Positions 47,223-50,077 of a stretch of DNA of 64,000 bases are shown one piece after another; position 1 is the first letter of the stretch, and every line of letters begins with the position of its first letter. The stretch covers positions 124,001-188,000 of the forward strand of contig JAWBKZ010000003.1 of NCBI GenBank assembly GCA_038831005.1, read 5' to 3'. The stretch comes from Ignisphaera sp. (lineage in GTDB: Archaea; Thermoproteota; Thermoprotei_A; Sulfolobales; Ignisphaeraceae). Position numbers and translations under genes: made by a program. The notes beneath the pieces were generated by a model. That model was not told where the DNA came from. It searched no databases and saw only the letters and a list, made by a program, of their open reading frames with translations.

Positions 47223-49031
47223 TTAATCTAGATAAAAGTATTGTCCTATAGATTTCTGATATCTATCTAGATAACTATTTGGTTTATTTATTCTAGGTCT
47301 ACCTGATTGAGGATCTCTCCTCATAGTTATATTGAGTTCTTTCAAGAAGTTATTGAATGTTCTAGCAACAACATCCGGAGCATTTCCGTAACCCTTTGAG
47401 CCGGGGATTCCTGAAAAGAGCATAAGTCTATCTACAGCATAGTCTATGAACAACACATTGTGGTCAACAACAAATATTGATGCCTTTCTTATTCTTGCTA
47501 CACGCTTTATTACTCTAGATACCGACAACTGGTCTTCTACATCTATATGTGATGACGGTTCATCTAGAAGATATATATCGGCTTCCTGTATTAGTGTACG
47601 AGCTATATGGAATTTTTGTAGCTCGCCTCCACTTAAGATGGATACCTCTTTAGACATTAACCTATCCAGATTAAGTCGCTTAATTATTTCACTATTCATC
47701 CAGTTGTCTTCATCTAGAGCATCCTTATTTGTATTCTTTAAGCATTCTTCAACAGTTGTACAACCTTCTATCTGTCTTGGAAGATATTGAGGTTTATAGC
47801 TTAACTTAAGGGCTACGGTTGTTGTATAACCATCATCAGGTTTAATTTCGCCTGCAAGAGTTCTTATGAATGTCGTCTTACCTATGCTGTTAGGACCTAC
47901 AATACCTATAACTTCACCTCTATGTGCTTCTCCAGGCTCTACGTAGAGCTCGAAATTGTTTAGCCTCTTCTTAATTGCTCCCCAAGAGCATAATACCTCG
48001 CTATATTCTATTTCTTTCTCATTTCTAGATTCATGTAATCTAAATGTTATGCTCTCAGATCTTATTTTCATATTTTCAGAAGGTAAGAAACCCTTTAAAT
48101 AGTAGTCTATACCAGCATTAGTTGGGTACAGATTTGAAAATATGCCATAGGTACCTGGCACACCATATGTTATAACAACATTGTCAGCTATATAGTCTAG
48201 GAATGTTAAATCATGATCTACGATGAATACGTACCTATTGCGGAGCACAAGTTCGTCTAATGCTTTAGCAAGTACTACCCTTTCTTTTATATCTAAATAG
48301 CTAGTAGGTTCGTCAAACAGATATACATCTCCCTCTCTCATTAATGCAACAGCTATAGCAAGCTTCTGTAGCTCCCCTCCACTTAAGATGCTAATATCCT
48401 TGTCAACAATGTTTTCCATATTTAATACTGATATAACGTCCCTAAATAATCCACGTTCATCAACCTTTGCCAGAATCGACTTTACGCTATCCTTTTTGAC
48501 ATATTTAGGTATGTACTCTATGTACTGGATCTTATGAACTATCTTTATATTTTGAGCATAAAGGTTAGCAAAGTATTCATAGAATTGTGTACCTTTAAAT
48601 TTATCAAGTACAGAATCTATCTTTGCTTCATCTTCATATTTACCAAAGTTCGGGATAATGTTACCAGACAATATCCTTAAAGCTGTTGTCTTACCTGCAC
48701 CATTGGGTCCTATGATTGCTATAAACTTTCCTCTTATGGGAACAGGTAGACCATATAATTTAAATGCATTAGGTCCATATCTATGGATAAGCTTTTCCTC
48801 TATTTCTTCTGGAAGATTCACTATCCTTATTGCAGCAAAAGGACATTTTTTAATGCATATACCACAAGCAATACATTTATCCTCATATATGAGTGGTTTT
48901 CCATTCTTACTCTCACTAAGATCTATTGCTTTATAAGGTCTTGTTCTATTTATTGGACAAAACCTAATGCACGGTATACCACATTTCTGTGGATTACAAA
49001 GTTCGTAATCTATTGAGGCAACCCTAACCAT
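47223..49031 (-). CDS. ribosome recycling ATPase ABCE1 (RNase L inhibitor homologue)
   Basis: 602 residues. It has two N-terminal 4Fe-4S motifs (CGIPCIRFCP and CIACGICIKKCPF), then two ABC domains with Walker A GPNGAGKTT and GPNSIGKTT and two LSGGELQK signatures. ABCE1 splits ribosomes after termination. ATG 49031 is preceded by GAGAGGTT at long spacing and a weak TATA-like TTTTAACT. A T-run (TTTTTTT on the coding strand, about 49078-49084) separates it from the mini-gene upstream and could stop part of the transcripts. Confidence 0.97.
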   Translation of the reverse strand: MVRVASIDYELCNPQKCGIPCIRFCPINRTRPYKAIDLSESKNGKPLIYEDKCIACGICIKKCPFAAIRIVNLPEEIEEKLIHRYGPNAFKLYGLPVPIRGKFIAIIGPNGAGKTTALRILSGNIIPNFGKYEDEAKIDSVLDKFKGTQFYEYFANLYAQNIKIVHKIQYIEYIPKYVKKDSVKSILAKVDERGLFRDVISVLNMENIVDKDISILSGGELQKLAIAVALMREGDVYLFDEPTSYLDIKERVVLAKALDELVLRNRYVFIVDHDLTFLDYIADNVVITYGVPGTYGIFSNLYPTNAGIDYYLKGFLPSENMKIRSESITFRLHESRNEKEIEYSEVLCSWGAIKKRLNNFELYVEPGEAHRGEVIGIVGPNSIGKTTFIRTLAGEIKPDDGYTTTVALKLSYKPQYLPRQIEGCTTVEECLKNTNKDALDEDNWMNSEIIKRLNLDRLMSKEVSILSGGELQKFHIARTLIQEADIYLLDEPSSHIDVEDQLSVSRVIKRVARIRKASIFVVDHNVLFIDYAVDRLMLFSGIPGSKGYGNAPDVVARTFNNFLKELNITMRRDPQSGRPRINKPNSYLDRYQKSIGQYFYLD

Positions 49032-49108
49032 TAATTGTTAACCTCTCTAGAAACCTAACCTGGTAGTTAAAACAGCAAAAAAATGCTTTAGTCATATGCC
49101 CGAGGTTG

Positions 49109-49183
49109 TCACCATTCTTCTTCTTCCCACTCTTCCTCTTCTTCCCACCATTCTTCTTCTTCCCACTCTTCCTCAAACATCAT
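49109..49183 (-). CDS. 24-residue mini-protein made almost only of Glu and Trp
   Basis: The frame from ATG 49183 to TGA 49109-49111 encodes MMFEEEWEEEEWW followed by two more Glu runs each closed by a single Trp: 16 Glu, 5 Trp, 2 Met and 1 Phe in all. AGGTG (49191-49195) lies 7 nt before the ATG and a TATA-like ACTTTTAAATC (49217-49227) about 39 nt before it, so it looks like a real gene with its own start signals. It is too short for routine gene calling. It sits 77 bp upstream of ABCE1 on the same strand. No family is known to me. Confidence 0.7.
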   Translation of the reverse strand: MMFEEEWEEEEWWEEEEEWEEEEW

Positions 49184-49216
49184 TTATCCACACCTGCATT
49201 AGCTTCACAAAACCAG

Positions 49217-49227
49217 GATTTAAAAGT
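49217..49227 (-). promoter_or_regulatory. TATA box of the Glu/Trp mini-gene (and perhaps ABCE1)
   Basis: ACTTTTAAATC on the minus strand predicts a transcript start near 49195, placing the AGGTG ribosome site at the very 5' end of the RNA. Confidence 0.45.
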
Positions 49228-49289: not shown

Positions 49290-49808
49290 CTAATCCTTAA
49301 TCAATAGATTGCTACATCCGATAATCCCTAATACCATCTTATCATATTCAATACTATTAAATATATTAGTTCTGTCTTTACCAATCTTTGTCTTTAGGTA
49401 GTTAACGTAAAATTGATTTAGATATGAATCATAAGTCTCGTACAAAAAGCTGCATTTAGCATCCTTTAAAACATTCCTTAATACTTTTGAGGCACATTCA
49501 TTAATTGAATAAACAAGTAAAAGTTTATGACCTTCTGAAAATCTTGGGAGATACTCATTCAGCACTGTATGTATCTGTCTTTCTGCGAAAAACCTTATAT
49601 AGAATTCTAGCTCCGGTTTTCTTGCCACATTTTCCTTGGTCTCCATAGCTTTAACTGTATTGAAGAAAGCTAATACAATGCTTTGCCATGGTGCCTTAAT
49701 TCCTTGGAGTAGCAAGCATAGTTTCACCCCATAGCATAATTCATTAACTTTTGTACAGATTTCTTCATCATGATCTGATTCACATTGAATAAACGCTAAC
49801 GATATCAA
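49290..49808 (-). CDS. Cgi121-like KEOPS subunit
   Basis: 172 residues. The segment SIVLAFFNTVKAME, followed by RKPELEFYIRFFAERQIHTVL, has the arrangement of Cgi121 family proteins (helix, then the ExLLxxxGxRQI-like motif). Cgi121 recruits tRNA to the KEOPS complex, which makes t6A at position 37. Similarity is modest and it could be a divergent member. Its start overlaps the stop of the MoaD-like gene by 4 bases. Confidence 0.6.
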   Translation of the reverse strand: MISLAFIQCESDHDEEICTKVNELCYGVKLCLLLQGIKAPWQSIVLAFFNTVKAMETKENVARKPELEFYIRFFAERQIHTVLNEYLPRFSEGHKLLLVYSINECASKVLRNVLKDAKCSFLYETYDSYLNQFYVNYLKTKIGKDRTNIFNSIEYDKMVLGIIGCSNLLIKD

Positions 49809-50077
49809 ATGGATCCTCCATGAGCTATAGGTATGATTGTTATAGTATCCTCGTTTTTTACTACAGCATTGTCTATTTCACCATAAACGTTAACATCAAC
49901 ATCGTTAACTAATATCAAGTATTCATTTTGAAGATCTCTACTATTAATTATACTTTTGAGCTCAGGTACTCTATTAGCAAGCCTAGTGAGAAAGTTATGT
50001 AAAGGTTCTTCATCATGGATCTCTACATCTACTTCAGGTAAACCTATTCTCGATTTTAAATGACCTAGGAATCTCAC
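49805..50077 (-). CDS. MoaD/Urm1-like ubiquitin-fold sulfur carrier with HGGSI end
   Basis: A 90-residue beta-grasp protein, GTG start. The sequence follows the MoaD/ThiS pattern: an N-terminal strand pair, LHNFLTRLANRVPEL helix, NEYLILVNDVDVN, and DTITIIPIAHGG near the end. Two residues (SI) follow the diglycine, so activation would require trimming, or the protein is not a carrier. Possible partners are the TtuA-like thiolase at 38 kb, MoCo synthesis, or protein tagging. Confidence 0.8.
   Translation of the reverse strand: MRFLGHLKSRIGLPEVDVEIHDEEPLHNFLTRLANRVPELKSIINSRDLQNEYLILVNDVDVNVYGEIDNAVVKNEDTITIIPIAHGGSI

Follow-up and report, generated by a model that had tools for sequence, protein, structure and literature searches.

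The window, by which we mean the whole 64,000-nucleotide stretch of DNA that was analysed and to which the positions below refer, belongs to an archaeal genome of 1.70 Mb and carries on its minus strand a micro-gene, here termed EW, together with the following neighbouring genes and signals.

47223..49031, minus strand: ABCE1, 602 aa (Pfam Fer4_RLI, Fer4 and ABC_tran), the commonest recurrent neighbour of EW
49077..49083, minus strand (A7 on the plus strand): T7 run 3' of the EW stop, likely an archaeal T-rich terminator
49109..49183, minus strand: EW micro-gene, 24 codons plus TGA, encoding MMFEEEWEEEEWWEEEEEWEEEEW, identified by its orthologues and by codon-level selection
49192..49196, minus strand: AGGTG, ribosome-binding-site-like, in the arrangement gcaggtgtggataa-ATG; gaggtg or aggtg recurs upstream in the family
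49216..49225 (approximate), minus strand: TATA-like tract (cttttaaa), from its sequence and the relatives likely the EW gene's own promoter
49290..49808, minus strand: Cgi121-like KEOPS subunit, the upstream neighbour, an HMM match to NCBIfam NF011465 with E=2.8e-4, below cut-off

The EW open reading frame runs from an ATG at 49183 to the end of a TGA at 49109 and reads ATG ATG TTT, then 21 codons drawn from GAA, GAG and TGG, then TGA, which gives 16 Glu, 5 Trp and, for the remaining three residues, Met-Met-Phe. The original prediction had described this stop-terminated 24-codon frame, its TATA-like box, its AGGTG site and a 77-bp gap from the EW stop to the ABCE1 start with the T7 run inside it, and every one of these elements was recovered here. 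The T7 run is likely the T-rich terminator of the micro-gene; alternatively, it could be part of the ABCE1 promoter. Exact matches to a looser pattern, W-EEE-xx-W, occur in the organism's own genome at the EW locus only. Upstream, the Cgi121-like gene was also matched by an HMM built from the CGI-121 cluster of the neighbours, and it is preceded by a ThiS/Urm1 ubiquitin-like protein (PF02597, PF09138) at 49805-50077 of the window.

A near-identical EW peptide was present in all 16 ABCE1-upstream regions obtained from the organism's own GTDB family (f1), in which its length varied always by whole Glu codons. The core WWEEEEEWEEEEW, comprising the last 13 codons, is common to 13 f1 genomes, and within it the Glu third positions were A/G-polymorphic (GAA/GAG) at 9 of 9 sites, while 0 of the 30 other positions were variable. 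Were all positions equivalent, such a 9-versus-30 split would have a probability of 1/C(39,9) = 4.7e-9, which is a guide and not a P-value because the calculation takes no account of relatedness. A purine tract without coding constraint would vary at first and second positions too, and is thus disfavoured by their invariance in the core. EW is a genuine protein-coding micro-gene that is conserved on the amino-acid level and not on the DNA level, and the codon pattern supports protein-level purifying selection. The original prediction had staked its case on conservation of the frame, and on selection acting upon it, in related genomes, and both were found (16/16 loci; 9/9 versus 0/30). Its suggestion of a functional acidic and aromatic peptide is likewise strengthened by this selection, by the near-universal presence of EW in the family and by its conservation across phyla. 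As such, we consider it highly probable that EW is a real gene with a predicted trans-acting product.

The gene also tends to behave as an independent unit, with a predicted promoter, ribosome site and T-run of its own. A TATA-like element lies at -60 to -20 in 77 of 139 relatives, compared with 26.4 in shuffled sequences and 12.2 in random windows, and a run of at least five T within 87 nt past the EW stop is found in 108 of 139, compared with 32.3 after shuffling. Ribosome sites were observed upstream of 69 relatives, counted over all of them, against 21.7 in the shuffled sequences.

The 141 distinct EW peptides are 21-73 aa long (median 30) and consist of 64.9% Glu and 15.7% Trp, together about 80%, with a mean net charge of about -21. 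The last residue is Trp in 119 of the 141 (84%) and Phe in another 5, and the penultimate residue is Glu in 136; since Trp takes up only 14% of internal positions, the C-terminal Trp is strongly enriched. An amphipathic helix was considered and rejected, as the phasing of Trp at 100 degrees was no better than random (0.364 versus 0.362) and no face of a helix was favoured. A 5-residue periodicity of Trp did stand out (0.495 versus 0.360 for random), and a Trp about every five residues without preference for a helix face suits a disordered multivalent binder. On the level of codons, the Glu directly after a Trp prefers GAA (GAA:GAG 298:179, counted over window positions 49109-49183 and the relatives), with a ratio of about 1:1 at four or more codons after Trp, possibly reflecting avoidance of the ribosome-site-like GGGAG.

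Relatives of EW extend over much of thermophilic Archaea: they were found in Thermoproteota, where at least 38 GTDB families have them, in Thermococcales and, sparsely, among Asgard archaea. The pattern W-EEEE-x0-4-W, searched in DNA, matched 51 of 60 order-level relatives, almost always at a single place, with near-zero matches among the same 60 for the control read backwards. A stricter pattern matched 117 of 398 genomes of the phylum and its control none, and an Asp-tolerant pattern added Sulfolobaceae-like forms such as WEEIEEEDWEEIEEEDWEEDEW as well as further members of f14. Groups with EW include Desulfurococcales, Pyrodictiaceae, Thermofilaceae, Bathyarchaeota, Brockarchaeota, Methanomethylicota, Nezhaarchaeota, Calditenuaceae and Hecatellales. 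In the phylum of Thermococcus, 19 of 115 genomes had matches, the Thermococcales form being longer with a basic start (MQPPKKKKVEEIEEEEFF...EEEEW), and among Asgard genomes 3 of 148 did. Pattern searches gave no EW-like match in the f15 and f51 genomes, and a strict pattern matched no viral contig. These counts of presence are lower bounds because the patterns were strict; they demanded internal Trp codons but left the terminal residue free, and many of the genomes surveyed were MAGs. Bacterial matches (L100, L101, L144) proved to be longer, different acidic proteins and were not accepted as relatives; likewise not counted were L141, where no EW reading frame was found, and L137, a LysW-like fusion. 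The shared C-terminal Trp, the spacing, the single place per genome and the partial synteny suggest common descent of all EW peptides, short of proof, particularly between Thermoproteota and Thermococcales, because low-complexity sequence blocks homology searches.

No match above cut-off was obtained for EW representatives in Pfam, NCBIfam or PHROGs, with one sub-threshold hit to TOPRIM_C (E=0.059). A PDB sequence search with a Thermococcales-type peptide matched nothing, and Rfam returned weak sub-threshold matches to animal RNAs alone, which were taken as chance. In the open-licence literature we found no description of the peptide, and the sole match to a sequence string was a kiwifruit paper. 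Judged against these libraries and papers, EW is apparently a microprotein family not described so far. Its absence from annotation is expected because the gene is short enough for standard gene callers to skip.

ABCE1 lies within 8 kb of EW in 34 of 60 wide, EW-centred loci, and 19 of the 37 families sampled have the two no more than 1.5 kb apart; adding f1 and f2 from the ABCE1-upstream regions (f2 being already among the 37) brings the latter to 21 of 38. For a random gene, such closeness is expected in about 0.2% of genomes, although the family count measures retention and not independent origins because the families are related, and the proximity may reflect an order of genes that was inherited. 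The commonest order is Cgi121, EW, (RPB9-like zinc ribbon), ABCE1, FBPase, TIM, and in many families EW lies on the same strand directly 5' of ABCE1 with a gap of about 47-500 bp. The pair is retained without a detected Cgi121 in f11 (L031), f24 and f68. EW is divergent from ABCE1 at L255-L257, L262 and L265, the first three of which are f9 loci where it is divergent from the zinc ribbon as well, and it lies downstream of ABCE1 in G028 and G056. In f3, the order Cgi121-ABCE1-FBPase-TIM is intact, with EW on a different contig; in finished genomes of f22, f31 and Thermococcales the distance is 89 kb to >1 Mb, and over all unlinked lineages it is 20 kb to >1 Mb. At loci without a nearby ABCE1, no other recurrent gene was seen among the neighbours, and ABCE1 is the sole neighbour that recurs over about half of the families.

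An RPB9/TFS-like protein of about 100 aa, which has an acidic tail and only the N-terminal zinc ribbon, has its gene between or beside EW and ABCE1 in many families (L239:1984-2286; cluster c7 in L229-L231, L238, L242, L243, L246, L250, L251 and L254-L258) and may be a functional partner of EW or of ABCE1. In addition, EW-like tails are attached to zinc-ribbon or Cys-rich domains at L220, L232, L137 and L309, one of them LysW-like (PF21344, E=3.1e-7), and these fusions are possible Rosetta-stone links.

Here we propose that the EW product acts in trans as a polyanion that is unfolded. Its Trp side chains, set at regular intervals, and the Trp at its C-terminus would dock into hydrophobic pockets of a basic surface, several docked Trp together giving multivalent binding. 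More tentatively, the putative docking surface may be ABCE1 or the small-subunit recycling complex that it forms, and the peptide could thereby modulate how ribosomes are split or how ABCE1 is released, much as eIF3j with its acidic-Trp arm, or the P-stalk with its tail, engages translation factors. Because 21 of 38 families have EW no more than 1.5 kb from ABCE1, in some cases with other neighbours gone, ABCE1 or the ribosome-recycling complex is the best single guess for a partner, and as a candidate we hold it with rather less than even confidence. The fuller reading, an ancient archaeal ABCE1 cofactor that docks through its Trp residues and C-terminus, controls splitting or ABCE1 release and forms a free-standing counterpart of the eIF3j arm, is in our estimate unlikely. 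To our knowledge, ABCE1 is near-universal among archaea, and the lack of an EW-like match in f15 and f51 implies that a role with ABCE1 is not required everywhere.

The closest functional analogue is eIF3j/Hcr1, which resembles EW by composition only, in being acidic with a conserved Trp: an acidic motif centred on Trp52 of eIF3j occupies a hydrophobic pocket of eIF3b (PMC2824034), and eIF3j and ABCE1 are found together on the post-splitting 40S subunit (PMC10175282). However, the eIF3j/Hcr1 motif sits within a larger multi-domain protein and the Trp pocket demonstrated for it belongs to eIF3b and not to ABCE1, whereas EW stands free, contains 3-8 Trp and shows no homology that could be detected. 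Membership of EW in eIF3j/Hcr1 is unsupported, as its 21-73 aa, nearly all Glu or Trp, hold no additional eIF3j domain. The P-stalk protein aP1 belongs to the ribosomal proteins and has a dimerisation domain, and the hydrophobic residues of its tail are preceded by an acidic linker. Like EW, it has hydrophobic residues close to its C-terminal end, and through a conserved Phe this C-terminus binds translation factors including aABCE1 (PMC6791870), although its contacts are Met and Phe while EW has repeated Trp. EW was rejected as an aP1, since a near-two-letter peptide of 21-73 aa is too short for the N-terminal dimerisation domain. A likeness exists also to DSS1/Sem1, a small, disordered, acidic, Trp-containing protein. 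DSS1, however, has a C-terminal helix and a varied sequence, and the low complexity of EW yields no usable signal of homology.

The strongest alternative to an ABCE1 partnership, to which we give not quite an even chance, is that EW is a real trans-acting disordered protein with another partner, such as a protein that binds RNA or helps to assemble ribosomes, RNA polymerase or one of its zinc-ribbon factors, or basic proteins at large, for which it might serve as nucleic-acid mimic or chaperone. EW is unlinked to ABCE1 in f3, f4, f5, f22, f31, f35 and Thermococcales; in a Pyrococcus-like genome its reading frame overlaps by about 10 nt the start of the gene for the ribosome-biogenesis factor NIP7 (L300:7854-8538); zinc ribbons carry a fused EW-like tail in f66, f37, the LysW-like protein and an Asgard protein; the RPB9-like gene often stands between EW and ABCE1; and the alternation of acidic and aromatic residues would fit nucleic-acid mimicry. 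That no neighbour but ABCE1 recurs over about half of the families argues against it.

The original prediction had offered, as one of two readings, a sensor leader that adjusts ABCE1 expression, that is, a cis-acting frame whose acidic chain, while being made, would stall or destabilise ribosomes, as mgtL/mgtQ do for their own genes. These are likewise tiny frames that lie 5' of another gene and contain many acidic codons, in Salmonella mgtQ the acidic codons at the start affect downstream translation (PMC8092293), and EW shares both the acidic start and, in many families, the site directly upstream of ABCE1 on the same strand. Such leaders work in cis, however, whereas EW is conserved as a protein and the same kind of peptide is retained where its gene is divergent to ABCE1, follows it or lies at a distance, the same-strand upstream site failing in f3, f4, f5, f8, part of f9, f22, f31 and Thermococcales; moreover, a T-run follows the EW stop in 108 of 139 relatives, and a destabilising chain has no obvious need of so strongly conserved a final Trp. 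Because EW is divergent, displaced or distant in many lineages, a cis-only leader cannot be the conserved function, and we consider this explanation improbable. As a general function the sensor leader is thus set aside, given also the gene's own signals, while a local role as leader may exist within the genus.

More doubtful still, and in our view very improbable, is a client or adaptor tail for the insertion of iron-sulphur clusters into ABCE1. ABCE1 carries two 4Fe-4S clusters, and the C-terminal Trp of yeast Lto1, which like that of EW follows an acidic residue, is needed for bringing the CIA complex to Rli1/ABCE1, which it serves to mature (PMC4523923), a parallel to the C-terminal Trp of 119 in 141 EW peptides. 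The targeting motif [LIM]-[DES]-[WF], however, is present in 0 of 141 EW peptides and is reported as conserved in eukaryotic CIA clients only (PMC10623007). That EW is no gene but a purine-rich repeat or DNA element open by chance, as its simple-sequence composition might suggest, is barely credible, since the A/G changes of the core are confined to third positions and start, stop, spacing and C-terminal Trp are all retained at one place per genome.

Together, these comparisons describe a protein made almost entirely of two amino acids that selection has kept in several phyla of archaea and for which no curated family exists; what is new concerns the protein family, the mechanism being a proposal by analogy. 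If ABCE1 is the target, EW would be a missing regulator of ribosome recycling, which archaea and eukaryotes have in common. If the target lies elsewhere, EW would offer a clean test case for the specificity of a disordered Glu/Trp polymer at high temperature.
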